A stretch of DNA of 38,001 nt from Gammaproteobacteria bacterium (GTDB lineage Bacteria > Pseudomonadota > Gammaproteobacteria > DRLM01): positions 60,401 to 98,401 of the forward strand of contig JAHFRV010000005.1 in assembly GCA_023266095.1 (NCBI GenBank), given 5' to 3'. Position numbers and translations under genes: made by a program. Positions 29,996 through 37,637 of the stretch are shown here, piece after piece (position 1 is the stretch's first letter; each line of letters opens with the position of its first letter). Below the pieces are notes generated by a model. The model made no database searches, was not told the DNA's origin, and saw only the letters and a program-made list of their open reading frames with translations.

Positions 29996-31675
29996 CTACA
30001 AGCGACCGTGGCGGATATCGAACAGCAACTCATTGGCCGCCGCGATGCCCGAGGCGCAGGCGCCTTCCATGAAACCCTGCGCCTCGTAGAACGACGAGGT
30101 GTGCTCGCCCGCGAATTTGAGCAGGCCGGACGCCTGCGCCTCGAGCCCGGCGATCGTCGTAAAATAGCCGGGATGGTTCGCGGTGTAAGAACCCAAGGCC
30201 GTGCGCTGCGGCAACCAGTGACCGCGCACCACCAGATAATTACCGTCTTTCTTCACCGCCCTGGCCTTGATGCCGGGCATGACTTTATCGAGATCGGTCA
30301 AAAATTCATCCGTCTGACTCTGCACCGGCACCGGATTTACCGTCGGCACCCCTTCGCCGACATGACAATCCGAGCAGTTCATCGGCTGCGTCTGCCCGCC
30401 CAGCTGCAATCTCCTGCCGCGGTCACCGCCCGAAAAATCGGTGAGCACGCCGATAGGCGCCTGTACGCTCCAGTTGGTCTCCCACACATTCTGTACGTTG
30501 GGCAGGTCCGCATACACTTCGCCGTTGTTGCCGAATCGGCTCGACCACGGCCTTCCCTCGAAACCGATCATGGTCTTGGCGTTGTTGCCGTAACGCAGCT
30601 CGGCGATCGCGCGCCGCTTCTGCTCCGATAAACTTACGTTGTCTTCCAGCACGATGTTGCGCAACACAGAAAACGGTATGGCCATCACCACCGCGTCAGT
30701 CACTTCCGGTGACGCCGCGTTCCTGAAAAACAACTCGAATTTTCCGGAGGCATTACGCCGCAGCCGTTCCAGCTCGGCGCCGGCTTGCAGCGACGCGTCG
30801 GCGCGCGCTACGAGTTGCTTGGCGATCTGATCATTGCCTTGCACGACATGAAAGCGTTCATCACTGGCGCCGAACGGTTGGAACTGTTTAGCGGGTTCGA
30901 ATTCGACCATCGCCAGCAGGGCGAGCGAACTCAGCTGCGGCGTTTCGAGACCAAATTCGATGGTGTAGGCGACGTTCAACATCGCGCGCAACAGCGGTAG
31001 GTCGTGGGCATGGCGATCCAGATAGGTCGCGAGGTCGGTCAAGTCCAACGCGCGTTCCGCGTCGGTATGTTTCAAGGCGGTGGGTTCATCGAGCCCATCG
31101 GCGTCCGGCTTGATCCGCCGGAGGAATTCGCGGAACTCGTCGACTACCTCGGACTCGGTGCGCCGCGCGCCGTCGAAATAAAAGAACGACTCGCCCCTCA
31201 GCATCACGCGGTCTTCCAAGGCCAAGCCGAATTCCTTGGCCAAACTGCGCACGGTAGTGTGGCCGCTGTCGATCAGCTCGCCGCCGCGCTCGACGATTCT
31301 GCCGGGAATCGCATTGCTCGAGGCTACCCGCCCACCGACGCGTTTCGCGTTGGCCTCGTAAATGACCGCGCGATAACCGTGCTTGCGCAACTGATAGGCG
31401 CAGCTCAAACCCGCCAAGCCGCCGCCGATGATGGCGATCCGCGGCTGTCGCTTCGCCAATGCAAATTGCGGGAAGGCCAAGGCGCCGCCGGCTATCACCG
31501 CGGCGCCCGCCATGAGCTTGAGGAAATCGCGGCGATCGCGACGAAATAAAGCATTGCGGTACTCAAGCTCCGCTAAACGTTCTTGCGCTTCCGCTGTGCT
31601 GATGTCGTGCTTTTCGGCATATTGCGCAACGCGCATCGCATTCAGTAAATATGAAAGAAGATTTGTTCGTGGCAT
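29996..31675 (-). CDS. Tat-exported flavin amine oxidase with CxxCH motif
   Basis: 559 residues from the ATG at 31675, which has AGGAAG upstream. After a 47-residue leader there is a twin-arginine signal, RRDFLK (48-53) with a hydrophobic stretch to about 74 (FALA). The FAD-binding GGGLAG (85-90), YEANAKRVGGR and the C-terminal GEHTSSFYEAQGFMEGACAS match the flavin amine oxidase family (monoamine oxidase, L-amino acid oxidase). Unusually, Cys434-Ser-Asp-Cys437-His438 is a haem-c attachment motif in an insertion before the C-terminal FAD segment. If used, the periplasmic enzyme could pass electrons to cytochromes instead of O2. The substrate is unknown. The long pre-Tat leader is also odd. Confidence 0.9.
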   Translation of the reverse strand: MPRTNLLSYLLNAMRVAQYAEKHDISTAEAQERLAELEYRNALFRRDRRDFLKLMAGAAVIAGGALAFPQFALAKRQPRIAIIGGGLAGLSCAYQLRKHGYRAVIYEANAKRVGGRVASSNAIPGRIVERGGELIDSGHTTVRSLAKEFGLALEDRVMLRGESFFYFDGARRTESEVVDEFREFLRRIKPDADGLDEPTALKHTDAERALDLTDLATYLDRHAHDLPLLRAMLNVAYTIEFGLETPQLSSLALLAMVEFEPAKQFQPFGASDERFHVVQGNDQIAKQLVARADASLQAGAELERLRRNASGKFELFFRNAASPEVTDAVVMAIPFSVLRNIVLEDNVSLSEQKRRAIAELRYGNNAKTMIGFEGRPWSSRFGNNGEVYADLPNVQNVWETNWSVQAPIGVLTDFSGGDRGRRLQLGGQTQPMNCSDCHVGEGVPTVNPVPVQSQTDEFLTDLDKVMPGIKARAVKKDGNYLVVRGHWLPQRTALGSYTANHPGYFTTIAGLEAQASGLLKFAGEHTSSFYEAQGFMEGACASGIAAANELLFDIRHGRL

Positions 31676-31801
31676 GAATGCTTCCTGCTCCGTGTCGGTA
31701 TTTTCATGCAAGCCAAGCTAATGCACTCGACTCCACCCTCCTTTAACGGCATCGTACTGTGCCAAGCGGGTGAAGAGGGCGCCGGCCAAACCAAAGAGGG
31801 G

Positions 31802-32035
31802 GAGGCCGTCACGAATCGTAGCGCAACTTATGCAGCCTTGGACACCGCCAAGTCGGTTTTTTTATGTGGTTGGCAAGGATAGGGTTGGGCGCGTAGTGCC
31901 CAATCGCAAGCTAAGGCGTGATCAGGCGCTGGAAATCTTTAACACTCTGCCTGCGGCGAGGGTGGGCATAGAAATCTGCGCGCCCACGGCTGGGTACGCG
32001 AGATCAACAAACTGGGCGTATTATCCCACCCAATA
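31802..32035 (+). pseudogene. IS110-family transposase N-terminal remnant with two frameshifts
   Basis: Read across three frames, the DNA encodes ATYAALDTAKSVF, then YVVGKDRVGRVVPNRKLRR followed by RVGIEIC, then AHGWVREINKLG. This is the conserved start of IS110-type DEDD transposases (aspartate in LDTAK, E-C-x-AH-W region). The first shift is at a run of seven T at about 31856-31862, where one T too many breaks the frame; the second, near 31980, lacks one base. The match ends near 32035 and no catalytic C-terminal part is visible. It is a decayed insertion fragment, marking past mobile-element activity next to the FeeM cluster. Confidence 0.75.
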
Positions 32036-32320: not shown

Positions 32321-33025
32321 TCAAGCCGCCTGTACGAGGTGGCGAGCGCCGTCAACATCTAGTTGGCCCGTCCACTGCCCTTGCACCGTAGAGCCGGGGT
32401 TGTGGTTAATGAGTCGATCCTGGGGTAGCCAACGCGGGTGGCAGGAATCCAAGTCCCCCCGCATGAACACCGCAGGCAGATTCGCCAATGCCTTGATACC
32501 ATCACAGTGCGCCACCGCTTGCATGTTGAATAAGCGGCGATAAACCCGCTCATGGCGTTTATTCAGCGTGCAGACAATGACGTCGATACCGCAACGTACT
32601 TGATGATGGATGATTCCCTGGAATAGAGCGATAACCAGACGCGGGTCATCCCGATAATCGTCATGGGTGGCTAAGCGCCAGACTACCCCGACCGCGCGGG
32701 CTTGCCGGCAGATGACATCGTATTCGGCGGCGAACACCTCGTCCACCGGCATGGCATAGTCACCGTCCCGGGTCAAAGAAACGGTGCCGATGAGGGTGTC
32801 ATCTTGGAAGGCGCCAAGTATTAATGTATCTGGCAGATGGTCCAAATGACGGCCATGGTGCAATCGTCCGTCTGGCTGTGGCGTGCAATAGCCGCGCTGT
32901 ACATAGCCATCGTGGGCAAGACGGTGCACTTGATCAAGTTCTTGGTTCCCACTCATGGCCCGGACAATCAGGCCATTCTGAGCATGGGCAGTAGGGTTCG
33001 CCGTCTGACCTGTTTTCCCAAACAT
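32321..33025 (-). CDS. FeeM-like N-acyl amino acid synthase (GNAT fold)
   Basis: 234 residues with a strong GGGAG ribosome-binding site. The sequence pattern matches the FeeM catalytic-core family, GNAT-fold enzymes that make N-acyl amino acids from acyl-ACP, related in fold to acyl-homoserine lactone synthases. Visible features are the N-terminal QVHRLAHDGYVQRGYCTP, a strand pair LILGAFQDDTLIGTVSLTRD, MPVDEVFAAEYDVICRQARA with WRLATHDD, the central GIDVIVCTLNKRHERVYRRL and NLPAVFMRGDL at the end. The product could be a signal or a surfactant-like lipid. It follows the GGDEF-EAL gene by 66 nt on the same strand and is probably co-transcribed. The acyl donor and amino acid are unknown. Confidence 0.8.
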   Translation of the reverse strand: MFGKTGQTANPTAHAQNGLIVRAMSGNQELDQVHRLAHDGYVQRGYCTPQPDGRLHHGRHLDHLPDTLILGAFQDDTLIGTVSLTRDGDYAMPVDEVFAAEYDVICRQARAVGVVWRLATHDDYRDDPRLVIALFQGIIHHQVRCGIDVIVCTLNKRHERVYRRLFNMQAVAHCDGIKALANLPAVFMRGDLDSCHPRWLPQDRLINHNPGSTVQGQWTGQLDVDGARHLVQAA

Positions 33026-33091
33026 GCATTTTCTCCCGCGTTAGTGTGTTGACCGGCGTCTGCGCGGCATTTGTGTCGGAAAACCGCCGCG

Positions 33092-35944
33092 TCATACCGG
33101 TACTGCCACTTGAGCAGAAGGCATGCCAACATGATATCCCTGTGCGAGATCGAACTTATAGTCGCTGAGCATGGCGAGGGTTTCGGCGTCTTCCACATAT
33201 TCCGCCACGGTCTTTTTGCCGAACCCCCGGGCCACATCACAAAAGGCCTTCACCAATACTTGGTCATCGCGATTGCTGACCAGGTTACGGATAAAGGAAC
33301 CATCGATCTTGATGTAATCAAACGGCAACTCCTTTAAATATTTGAACGATGAGAAACCGACACCAAAATCATCCAAGGCGAAATAGCAGCCCTTGTCCTT
33401 GATGGCCTCCATCAGTTTGCGCGTCGCCGTCGCATCCGTCAGCACCAAGGTCTCGGTGATTTCGAAGATCAAACGTTCGGGATCGACACCGGTGCGGATC
33501 AATAACCTATCCAGTAAGGGAAGTAGCTCGGGATCGTCGAAGGCGCGGGCGGAGAGATTGAGAGAATAGCTCAGCTGCCCATCCCGCTCCCATTGCGAGA
33601 GATGAGTGATCACTTCCGTCATGACCCAGTGGTCTATAGAGCGAATCAGGCCGGTGCGTTCAGCCTCGCGGATAAAGGCGCCCGGCCTCAAAAAGCTACC
33701 GCCCGCTTCGCACATGCGCAGCAAAGCCTCATAGTGTGAGATCCGCTGTGTTTTCAAATTGAGAATGGGTTGGTAGTGCAGTACGAATCGATTCTGAGTC
33801 AATGCATCTTCAATCTTACGCCGCCAATGAATCTGTGCGCGAACCTGGTGACGGGCCCCTTCCTTGCCGGAAAAGAGATGCCACTGCCCGCGACCCGCAT
33901 CCTTCGCTTGGTACATGGCCAGGTCCGCATTGGCCAATATTTGTTCCGGTCCCTCGTCTTGCGCGGGAAACAAAGCGATGCCGATACTGGCGCTGGCGGT
34001 GAACACGGTGCTATCGGCGGTGATGCTCACCGCCCGCAAGGCGTCACTCAATTTGACGGCGAGGGCCAAGGCACCCAGCTCGTCGATCTCCGGTATCACC
34101 ACCGCGAACTCATCGCCCCCCAAGCGCGCCACCACATCCACTTTGCGCAGTTCACGCTGGAGGGCCTGCGCAACTGCCCGTAACAATTGATCACCCGCTT
34201 TATGACCGCTGGTGTCGTTGACGTCCTTGAAATAGTCCAGGTCGATGTAGAACAGCGCACCACTGTGTCCGTGTCGCTGCGCCCTGAGCAGCGCCGTATG
34301 CAATTCTTCCTGTAACCGTCCGCGATTGAACAGACCCGTGAGCGAGTCATGTTCCGCCAACCAGGTGAAACGTCGCTCAACCTGCTTACGCTCCGTGATA
34401 TCGAGACCTACCGCGAGCACCCCGGGGTCGAGAGGTCCCTCCGCTTTCAAGTGAGAATACAGCCAGACGATATCGCGCTCACCCCCATCCTTGCAGAGAA
34501 TGCTGGATTCATGCTGGAGCTGCTTATCATGGCCGACGGACACATCCCTCAACAACCGCGTGTAGGTGTCTTGCTCTTCGGGGGGAACCAGCAGCTCGAT
34601 GAATGATTTGCCTATCAGTTCATCACTGTCATAGCCGATCAGCGAGGCGGCATGTTGATTCAGCAGCCGGACCCGCAGATCATTATCCAGAGTGATGATG
34701 ATCACTTGGGCGGTGGCCAGCAGCCCCTCGGCAAAGTCACGTTCCCGGGCCAGTTCTTTGATCTTCTGCTGTAAATCCCGACTGCGGGAGTCTACCTGCT
34801 GCTCCAAGGTTTGTAAGTGATCCGCCAGCGCCAGTGCGGACACACATAGCTGTTCGATTTCGTCCCGGGGTTTGGCGGCGAGATGCTGCGCGCCGATCAG
34901 CTTGCGGGATTGGTCGAATTGGCTCTGTGCCAGCAACGGCAAGCTCGACGCTGTATTGCGTAGACGCTCCATAGGGCGTCGCAAATAGAGAAGGACCACC
35001 GTGCCCGAAATCAGCAGCCCCAGAATCCCAGTGACTATGCTCTGCATCGCCGCGGAGCGGATCTTCACCATCGCGTCGGTTACATCCGTGATGGTAATCA
35101 GATGGCTGGGTAAGGATCCGGGTTCTTTACTCAAAGGCACAAAGCGCAAGGCATATGCGCGCTCGTCGATATCAATGTTGGCTCCGGCCAATACCTCATC
35201 TAGCGACCGCCGTTCATTGGCCAGCTTGCGCAGTATCGGCCAGGTCTCGGCGGCGTTGGTCAAGGCGACTACCCGCATCTGCCAGCCGTCGAGTCGGCGT
35301 GTCGTCTCCTCTTCATCCGCGCCGGGCGAATTCATGTCCGCCACCAAAATACCGATCTCCGCGGCGGAGGCGCGCCGAAAGTCCAAGGCCAGCTCGGCCA
35401 GGGAAGCGCTCAAGACCACCGCCCCGATGTCGCCCTGCTGACTGAGCAGCGGTACCGCCGATAGGATTATGCAATCCTGCGCACAGTACATTTGATTGTG
35501 AGGGAGTTCGTCGCGGATGGCGTCATTCACGGCGCGTGTTATCAGATTCGATCCTTGGAGATCTTGAATAGCGCCACGTGCCGTGACGAGCTGACCTCGC
35601 TTGGAATAAAAACCTACCGCCCGCAAATCGAAATTCAGCTGTAAGGCCGTCCAGTGATCATCTAAAGCGGCCTCCAGTGCGTTGTTATTTTTTCCAAGGG
35701 CGGCACTGACACTACTCAAACCTGGCAGCAATCCTCCGATCTGCTGTAGGTGCAATTTGGCCTGCTCCATTTCCGCATCGAAGGCTGTCATGAGGTGGAC
35801 ATGATCCTCATCGAGTTGTTCATGAAGCTGATCTGAGAGACTGATATAACTGAGCAGGGGGAACACGGCGTTAACGGCCACCAGAACCAGCCCGATCACC
35901 CAGAGTAAGCGCCATTTCAGGCTGAGAAAACCTTTATTCCACAC
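33092..35944 (-). CDS. Membrane-bound sensor GGDEF-EAL protein with PAS domain
   Basis: 950 residues starting at GTG with AGGGAG upstream. A membrane helix (about 13-32) is followed by a periplasmic Cache-like sensor (about 33-300), a second helix (about 305-325), a HAMP-like segment and coiled coil, and a PAS domain (about 405-525). The diguanylate cyclase domain is intact: GGDEF at 609-613 with inhibitory I-site RKVD at 600-603. The phosphodiesterase domain is also intact: EALLR at 739-743, NLSARAF, ITETL, DDFGVGFSS, KIDGSFI and EYVEDAE. The protein could both make and degrade c-di-GMP. It lies downstream of a phosphate-binding-like protein and a porin and upstream of the FeeM-like gene, suggesting an envelope-triggered signalling cluster. 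Confidence 0.95.
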   Translation of the reverse strand: MWNKGFLSLKWRLLWVIGLVLVAVNAVFPLLSYISLSDQLHEQLDEDHVHLMTAFDAEMEQAKLHLQQIGGLLPGLSSVSAALGKNNNALEAALDDHWTALQLNFDLRAVGFYSKRGQLVTARGAIQDLQGSNLITRAVNDAIRDELPHNQMYCAQDCIILSAVPLLSQQGDIGAVVLSASLAELALDFRRASAAEIGILVADMNSPGADEEETTRRLDGWQMRVVALTNAAETWPILRKLANERRSLDEVLAGANIDIDERAYALRFVPLSKEPGSLPSHLITITDVTDAMVKIRSAAMQSIVTGILGLLISGTVVLLYLRRPMERLRNTASSLPLLAQSQFDQSRKLIGAQHLAAKPRDEIEQLCVSALALADHLQTLEQQVDSRSRDLQQKIKELARERDFAEGLLATAQVIIITLDNDLRVRLLNQHAASLIGYDSDELIGKSFIELLVPPEEQDTYTRLLRDVSVGHDKQLQHESSILCKDGGERDIVWLYSHLKAEGPLDPGVLAVGLDITERKQVERRFTWLAEHDSLTGLFNRGRLQEELHTALLRAQRHGHSGALFYIDLDYFKDVNDTSGHKAGDQLLRAVAQALQRELRKVDVVARLGGDEFAVVIPEIDELGALALAVKLSDALRAVSITADSTVFTASASIGIALFPAQDEGPEQILANADLAMYQAKDAGRGQWHLFSGKEGARHQVRAQIHWRRKIEDALTQNRFVLHYQPILNLKTQRISHYEALLRMCEAGGSFLRPGAFIREAERTGLIRSIDHWVMTEVITHLSQWERDGQLSYSLNLSARAFDDPELLPLLDRLLIRTGVDPERLIFEITETLVLTDATATRKLMEAIKDKGCYFALDDFGVGFSSFKYLKELPFDYIKIDGSFIRNLVSNRDDQVLVKAFCDVARGFGKKTVAEYVEDAETLAMLSDYKFDLAQGYHVGMPSAQVAVPV

Positions 35945-36001
35945 GCCAGCTCCCTGGGCGTAATCGCCACTAGCACACGCCGCTGTTACCCGCCAGACCC
36001 T

Positions 36002-37237
36002 TCAAAAATGGAAAGAAACCAGCATGGTGAAAAGCTGCCAGTCTTTAGTGCGTGCAAAAAGATCGGGATTTTCAATAATCGGCAACCAAGCCGTGCCGTT
36101 GACCTTGTGCCACTCAGCACGCAAGAATAAATAGGGGTAAGGATCCCACCTCACGCCTAACGTGAAATCCTTGGCATAACGCGTATGGGCGGGCAGGCCG
36201 CTGCCCGCGGCATAGCTCTCACCGTCTTCGTCGTCTTCATCCGTGTTCAACACATCATAACGGGTAAAGAATTGCCAACGTGGAGCGGGACGGTAATCGA
36301 ACTGCGCATAACGGCTCTTGCCCACGACTTCCATATTGGGCAACGCGGGCCCGAAGTCGCTGTAGCTAAACCGGCGCCGTGCATATTCCCCAGTGAACCC
36401 CCAGCGCGCAGCGTCATATTGCAAGGAAAATATCCAGGGTGTAAACCGTATCTTGCCAGCAGCGAGTGGGTCAGCGGTTCCCGGCTGGTAATCCATGTTG
36501 GCTTGCACGCTGCTGACGGCGAGCCGAATACGCTCGTCGTAGCTCTTCAACATCAGCCGTCCCTGAAAAGAAATACGGTCCTGCAAGTTACCCGGGCGGT
36601 CGGCACCCAGCAAGGCCGGTTCTGTGTTGATTGCATCGATAATAGGTTCAGCGATGCCAAACTCAAGCAAGGCCGTCGTCCAGGGCCACGCCTGTTCACC
36701 GTATAACACCACACCATCGGCGGAGGCGGCGAGATTGCGGGTACGCTCAAAGTAGATGGACTGGGGCAACAATATTCCCGGCCTCGCCAGCGGCACGCCC
36801 CTGACGTCATTGAACAGGCCCAAGGGCACTTTTATCCTGCCGAAACGCCCGCCCCAATAGCCCTTGTCCGAGGCGGCGAAGCGCGAATCGATGAAACCAT
36901 AGTCCAGCGCCGCCTCGCCATCATCGGTGGCCCCGGCATGACGACTGATCACCTGCCCCACCACCAGCAAATTCGGCACGGGTGCATAAGAGGCATTCAA
37001 TCCAAGCTCGGAAAAGTCCAGACTGCCCGAGTCATCCGTCTCACCGAAGAAATTGTTGTCAGTGGTATAGACCACGGCTTGACTGGCAAAGCCATGCAAC
37101 TGCAAGCCTTCACTGAGGGTCACCCCTGTCGCGGGATAACTCAGCGCCATGGCGAATGACATGGCCAAGCCCAGCCTAACGTCCCTACCCGCTCGCAACC
37201 GTCTAATCGATTTGCAGTACTTTGATACGTGCATCAT
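36002..37237 (-). CDS. Porin-like outer-membrane protein
   Basis: About 411 residues; the ATG at 37237 (or 37234) has AGGGACGG upstream and overlaps the preceding gene by about 35 nt. A long N-region signal peptide ends near ALSYPATG. The mature part has barrel features: LNASYAPVPNLLVVGQV, WGGRFGRIKVPLGLF, RWGFTGEYARRRFSY, RWQFFTRYDVLNT, FLRAEWHKV. The C-terminus ends with Phe (LVSFHF). This resembles large porins encoded beside phosphate-binding-like proteins and sensor GGDEF/EAL or kinase genes. The cargo is unknown. Confidence 0.85.
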   Translation of the reverse strand: MMHVSKYCKSIRRLRAGRDVRLGLAMSFAMALSYPATGVTLSEGLQLHGFASQAVVYTTDNNFFGETDDSGSLDFSELGLNASYAPVPNLLVVGQVISRHAGATDDGEAALDYGFIDSRFAASDKGYWGGRFGRIKVPLGLFNDVRGVPLARPGILLPQSIYFERTRNLAASADGVVLYGEQAWPWTTALLEFGIAEPIIDAINTEPALLGADRPGNLQDRISFQGRLMLKSYDERIRLAVSSVQANMDYQPGTADPLAAGKIRFTPWIFSLQYDAARWGFTGEYARRRFSYSDFGPALPNMEVVGKSRYAQFDYRPAPRWQFFTRYDVLNTDEDDEDGESYAAGSGLPAHTRYAKDFTLGVRWDPYPYLFLRAEWHKVNGTAWLPIIENPDLFARTKDWQLFTMLVSFHF

Positions 37238-37637
37238 CAACCGTCCCTGAAATGTAACCTATCGCCCCGGGTGTACGCGCAATTGTCTCGAGCATTGCGG
37301 CCTGATCAGACACGGTGAGCGGTGCTTGTCCGGTACCCGAAAAAACCAACCGGTCCCAGGCGCGCCTCAGCTGATACGGAAAGACATTTAAGATTTGTTT
37401 GCAGAAGGTAACGTGAGCGGATGAACTATCTGGCAGGACGGCTACGACCAAGACATGTCCGTCCGGCCAAGTCCGCGTGCGCATACCAAAGATGGCTTGT
37501 AACTGATTCACGGAAAGCTGAGTATAAGTTACGCTGGGATTGGCAATAACAAAGCCTTGCGCATACCCGGTGAAGCTTGCACAAAGAAGCACACTACAGA
37601 CAATACTTAGCCGCCAAAGACCTATTGAACGGGACAT
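37203..37637 (-). CDS. Small periplasmic phosphate-binding-like protein
   Basis: 144 residues from the ATG at 37637, with GGAG 7 nt upstream; an upstream TTG is less likely. A Sec signal peptide (ending SFTGYAQG) precedes a short PstS-like/PBP-superfamily domain. Recognised features are ANPSVTYTQLSVNQLQAIFG, a tungsten/phosphate-like WPDGHVLVVAVLPDSSSAHV, then FCKQILNVF and the C-terminal ARTPGAIGYISG. It is about half the size of full PstS, so it may be a sensor subunit and not a transporter component; no ABC transporter genes adjoin it. It is the first gene of the cluster with the porin, GGDEF-EAL and FeeM-like genes. Confidence 0.82.
   Translation of the reverse strand: MSRSIGLWRLSIVCSVLLCASFTGYAQGFVIANPSVTYTQLSVNQLQAIFGMRTRTWPDGHVLVVAVLPDSSSAHVTFCKQILNVFPYQLRRAWDRLVFSGTGQAPLTVSDQAAMLETIARTPGAIGYISGTVDDARIKVLQID

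Follow-up and report, generated by a model that had tools for sequence, protein, structure and literature searches.

Comparison of gene order and phylogeny shows that a putative envelope-sensing c-di-GMP module of Gammaproteobacteria has recruited proteins of the acyl-ACP acyltransferase fold at least twice independently. One of these fourth-gene partners lies in the window (the whole 38,001-nucleotide stretch of DNA analyzed here). All of the parts are known, and the main interest lies in the recurrent pairing with an acyltransferase fold and in the conserved loss of a catalytic residue in the clade to which the window protein belongs.

A predicted four-gene operon

The earlier note had proposed four same-strand genes encoding a small binding protein, a porin, a c-di-GMP enzyme and a FeeM-like protein, and the open reading frame list bears this out, with all four on the minus strand in the final 6 kb of the window:

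37203..37637, minus strand: PBP-like protein, single-lobe PstS-type, periplasmic; ATG start at 37637, TTG 37643 as an alternative
36002..37237, minus strand: porin-like outer-membrane protein; possible starts TTG 37240, ATG 37237 and ATG 37234
33092..35944, minus strand: membrane c-di-GMP enzyme, dCache_3-PAS-GGDEF-EAL (Pfam, motif check); GTG start
32321..33025, minus strand: FeeM-fold acyltransferase-like protein (PF21926, E=1.7e-30); ATG start preceded by GGGAG
32011..32034, minus strand: possible weak terminator hairpin after the operon, from a consensus scan in which the number of sites was not above that in shuffles

The ATG at 37637 agrees with the start of the PBP-like protein in its homologues. 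Counted from the porin ATG at 37237, the first two genes overlap by 35 nucleotides, and the gaps that follow are as modest as had been described (57 nucleotides from the porin to the GGDEF-EAL gene, 66 from there to the FeeM-like gene). We infer that the four genes form one operon. The contig stops at the end of the window, leaving only about 360 nucleotides visible upstream, and a consensus scan of the locus returned three sigma-70-like sites against 3.3 in shuffled sequence, which is the chance level. Base composition does not point clearly to recent acquisition from a foreign source: G+C content is 53-58% in the operon and 57-62% across the remainder of the stretch. Between the window and genome G003, purifying selection acts on each of the four genes (dN/dS 0.13-0.23, NG86), with the FeeM-like gene, at about 0.22, lying within the range of its neighbors.

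Elsewhere in the window, the gene at 29996-31711 (minus strand) encodes a Tat-type protein resembling flavin amine oxidases (PF01593), within which lies a CxxCH (MNCSDCHVG). This is the motif for covalent heme c attachment and is not, to our knowledge, a usual feature of that family.

The first three genes as a wider module

In the c-di-GMP enzyme, the dCache_3, PAS_4, GGDEF and EAL domains each score above their Pfam cut-offs, and the motifs expected of a bifunctional enzyme are intact, including GGDEF with its RxxD I-site and the EAL catalytic motifs. The membrane c-di-GMP enzyme with a sensor that had been read from the sequence is thus confirmed.

The 'phosphate-like' binding protein of the earlier note held up in part. 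A remote relation to PstS proteins emerges at the level of the family: a profile of the 23 module PBPs reaches PstS structures with a best E-value of 1.3e-6, over about one lobe, and 15 of the 23 family members match PBP_like_2. The window protein itself scores 19 bits (E=0.0013) against PBP_like_2, under the Pfam cut-off of 27. It also falls short of the two-lobed length of PstS, measuring 144-146 amino acids including the signal as against about 260-290, and the alignment covers a 116-amino-acid stretch of 1twy. An AlphaFold model (pLDDT 47.6) was too poor for a fold comparison. The case for phosphate binding is correspondingly weak, and because the protein is half the length of PstS, phosphate as its ligand is a guess.

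The porin-like protein has no Pfam or NCBIfam match, and owes its name to its length, a signal-like N-terminus, a C-terminal ...SFHF and its membership of a conserved family. The family is present in 38 of 369 sampled gammaproteobacterial genomes, and in most of the approximately 50 loci that we examined the porin gene adjoins a PBP gene. Most of the porin loci examined read PBP, then porin, then dCache-(PAS)-GGDEF(-EAL), without FeeM, so that the recurrent neighborhood suspected for the first three genes exists in about 20 or more gammaproteobacterial loci that lack a FeeM gene. The first three genes are a wider gammaproteobacterial module from which the fourth gene is usually absent. As most modules have no acyltransferase, the acyltransferase is not essential to the sensor. 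One locus (G224, L108:4850-6019, minus strand) carries a PBP-porin pair with no adjoining c-di-GMP gene; next come an unassigned gene and one resembling ketoacyl-ACP synthase III, which places a further acyl-ACP enzyme close to such a pair. A literature search that had most subscription papers outside its reach, and is therefore weak evidence, found neither a description of a PBP-porin-c-di-GMP neighborhood nor a paper naming both FeeM and GGDEF.

Conservation of the four-gene order

The order seen in the window recurs in related genomes, complete in G003, G309 and G380 and with three of the four genes in G195, where the end of the porin gene, GGDEF-EAL and FeeM lie at a contig end. The closest of these is G003, an uncultured Chromatiaceae MAG (CALZJG010000041) of closely similar gene order, whose FeeM-like protein is 70% identical to that of the window. 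Together with the window, the five genomes represent three GTDB families; identity among the FeeM-like proteins falls to about 35%, and the gap between the c-di-GMP and FeeM-like genes ranges from about 21 to 66 nucleotides. At E<1e-30, the FeeM clade was found in four of the 369 genomes of the class sample, in every one directly behind the module, and a profile search of genome contigs with the clade alignment returned three loci, on the same contigs as in G003, G309 and G195. An order-level search around G195 added one further clade member, G380; the equivalent search around G309 added none.

The GGDEF-EAL proteins of the FeeM-bearing modules cluster together in the tree (79/94 support, 81% of bootstraps), which fits a single gain of the FeeM-like gene, a question on which the porin tree gave no resolution. 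G002 and G004, close relatives of the window's genome, have no match to either the porin or the FeeM-like protein, and the locus is therefore sporadic.

A second type of acyltransferase in the fourth position

Acyltransferases of the TIGR03694 type were first found behind the module in two genomes of one family, f171. A wider order-level search with extraction of flanking genes showed that all eight f171 modules end in such a gene, which overlaps the c-di-GMP gene or stands within about 50 nucleotides of it. These proteins pass the TIGR03694 cut-off (111.95 bits), keep the catalytic Glu in the alignment in 8/8 cases, and are in each of the eight genomes the only match above the cut-off. The search for exosortases came up empty in all eight genomes, and the 'exosortase-associated' acyltransferases should therefore serve a different purpose in them. 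The window's genome and G003 have exosortases and ordinary TIGR03694 genes elsewhere, the latter (on contig C34 in the window's genome, G000, and C127 in G003) sharing a contig with an exosortase gene. Both genomes also encode a second, divergent TIGR03694 acyltransferase (G000:C26:24047-24706 and G003:C34:10949-11614).

The complete PBP-porin-GGDEF-EAL-acyltransferase order is also present in a cultured strain, Halomonas sp. PA16-9 (NZ_CP040452.1). At 73% identity, its acyltransferase is close enough to that of an f171 genome to suggest that the family corresponds to Halomonadaceae.

In a tree of the superfamily, the FeeM-type and TIGR03694-type proteins that fill the fourth position form separate clades, split at 100/100, and recruitment must therefore have occurred at least twice. 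This second, independent recruitment from the same superfamily bears on whether the fourth gene is simply a passenger in the operon, with no functional link to c-di-GMP. Such an explanation would accommodate the absence of the gene from most modules and the missing porin and FeeM-like matches in G002 and G004. It would also suit the module in G033 whose last gene encodes a family 2 terpene synthase (PF19086; L104:5505-6431, plus strand). That gene starts before the GGDEF reading frame has ended, and its presence indicates that the position is not strictly for acyltransferases. Repeated recruitment argues against a passenger, as does the maintenance of position and close spacing across five genomes whose FeeM-like proteins are as little as about 35% identical, and we regard it as quite unlikely.

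A FeeM fold without the catalytic glutamate

The FeeM-family match anticipated for the fourth protein is present. PF21926 is matched at 106 bits against a cut-off of 27, and FeeM (2g0b) is the only solved relative found by sequence (E=1.3e-6). An AlphaFold2 model built from four sequences has a mean pLDDT of 77.8, and about 90 over the domain; with this model Foldseek placed 2g0b first (TM 0.81 on target), and VIA-align ranked FeeM first with a Z-score of 21.1, followed by the AHL synthases TofI and LasI. Against TIGR03694 the window protein gave nothing at E<=0.001 (the cut-off of that family being the 111.95 bits given above), and by Pfam it has no PilZ domain.

The reading of this protein as a GNAT-fold N-acyl amino acid synthase therefore stands as to fold and family, but the catalytic column of the alignment speaks against the synthase itself. 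FeeM, the NAS enzymes, other stand-alone relatives and the exosortase-linked acyltransferases have Glu at this position (Asp in two cases), whereas all five members of the window clade have Val (AVG-V-VWRLATH in the window, VGVVWRLAT and similar across the clade). At the same position in Nas354, the change Glu103Ala abolished N-acyltyrosine production and the biosurfactant phenotype (PMC4897644). Given the replacement of Glu by Val, the FeeM-like protein is not a canonical N-acyl amino acid synthase, and the usual N-acyl amino acids are probably not among its products; it would either carry out altered chemistry or act by binding an acyl substrate.

It follows that an ordinary synthase, with c-di-GMP governing its output of an N-acyl signal or surfactant as the earlier note envisaged, is unlikely. 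What speaks for it is the PF21926 score, well above the cut-off, the rank of FeeM as best solved fold by a margin, and the FeeM-PilZ fusions Nas343 and Nas354, which make N-acyltyrosines and so provide a precedent for a link between FeeM and c-di-GMP (PMC4897644). Set against these are the invariant Val, the Nas354 mutant and the missing PilZ domain.

The same substitution invites the opposite reading, in which the protein has lost catalysis and serves as a regulator: it would detect acyl-ACP, some acyl ligand or c-di-GMP, and would act either on the GGDEF-EAL enzyme or on a downstream target. Loss of the catalytic residue is conserved while the fold is kept under purifying selection, other conserved residues are unlike those of FeeM (HD..Y, WRLAT), and Caulobacter provides an example of a c-di-GMP effector from the GNAT family, HfsK (PMC5362036). 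Many polar residues are nevertheless invariant within the clade, and elsewhere the same position is filled by acyltransferases with intact Glu. Moreover, catalysis by GNAT-fold enzymes does not always require a conserved general base. On balance we consider a dead regulator possible but doubtful.

A further class of FeeM domains has also dispensed with the Glu. Fusions of about 400-520 amino acids in several gammaproteobacterial families (L129, L132-L136, L139 and L141) carry, by sequence, a C-terminal cyclic-nucleotide-binding-like domain, and have Ser, or singly Gly or Cys, in the catalytic column; loss of Glu may therefore not abolish catalysis. NasP, a cAMP-activated synthase according to PMC4897644 and the title of Clardy and Brady 2007, may be a member of this class, and if it is, absence of the Glu alone does not mean inactivity.

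Proposed mechanism

As a whole, the locus is best explained as an envelope-sensing c-di-GMP operon with an optional fourth position for an acyltransferase fold, filled in the window by a FeeM-fold protein that is not a canonical synthase, a reading in which we place moderate confidence. Through the secreted one-lobe PBP and the porin, a ligand would reach the dCache domain, and the GGDEF-EAL enzyme would respond by raising or lowering c-di-GMP; a part for the PBP and porin in ligand delivery or sensing is suggested by NspS-MbaA, a working analogue (PMC5646818). The fourth protein would most likely have an acylated small molecule, coupled to the module, as its product or binding partner. This molecule could be the cognate input ligand, with the synthase beside its receptor as in LuxI/LuxR, or an output controlled by c-di-GMP, for which HfsK would be a parallel (PMC5362036). 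The gene order is as compatible with a synthase beside its receptor as with the pathway proposed earlier, from ligand to c-di-GMP to N-acyl signal.

A more specific form would be a self-contained acyl-signal circuit, in which a LuxI/FeeM-superfamily synthase shares an operon with an envelope receptor, made up of the PBP, the porin and the dCache GGDEF-EAL enzyme, that reads the synthase's own product outside the cytoplasm and converts it directly into c-di-GMP, the Halomonas form being active and the window form having altered chemistry. We rate this circuit as distinctly improbable; if true, it would be a quorum-sensing-like loop with a c-di-GMP enzyme as receptor in place of a LuxR-type regulator.

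Comparison with known systems

The closest relatives of the window protein are the FeeM/Nas enzymes, which it resembles in fold (TM 0.81 on target, Z 21) and in its PF21926 score. In Nas343 and Nas354 a fused PilZ domain further connects FeeM with c-di-GMP, and c-di-GMP control of acylation has been proposed for these fusions (PMC4897644). Unlike them, the window protein has Val in place of the catalytic Glu and no PilZ, and whereas Nas343 and Nas354 carry their c-di-GMP receptor as a fusion, its gene follows that of a GGDEF-EAL enzyme. The clade offers a natural test of whether a FeeM fold can function without the Glu. NasP differs in being controlled by cAMP, apparently acting on the protein itself.

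The TIGR03694 PEP-CTERM/exosortase system-associated acyltransferase belongs to the same superfamily and fills the fourth position in the Halomonadaceae-like modules. It is unlike the window clade in its separate position in the tree and its intact Glu, and the Halomonadaceae-like genomes, in which an exosortase was not detected, depart from the context for which the family is named.

Similar to the window module, NspS-MbaA of Vibrio cholerae combines a periplasmic binding protein with a membrane GGDEF-EAL enzyme (PMC5646818). NspS binds norspermidine, while the window module has a one-lobe PBP, an added porin and an acyltransferase-like gene. HfsK of Caulobacter is likewise a GNAT-family acyltransferase in c-di-GMP signaling, but its GNAT domains are a FemX-like tandem and do not have the FeeM fold, and c-di-GMP binds to the protein directly (PMC5362036). 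FeeM-type and exosortase-associated acyltransferases are widespread, and what their products do physiologically is unclear (PMC4897644); two clades of this superfamily in one position behind a c-di-GMP enzyme connect acyl-amide chemistry with c-di-GMP in a way that is concrete and can be tested.
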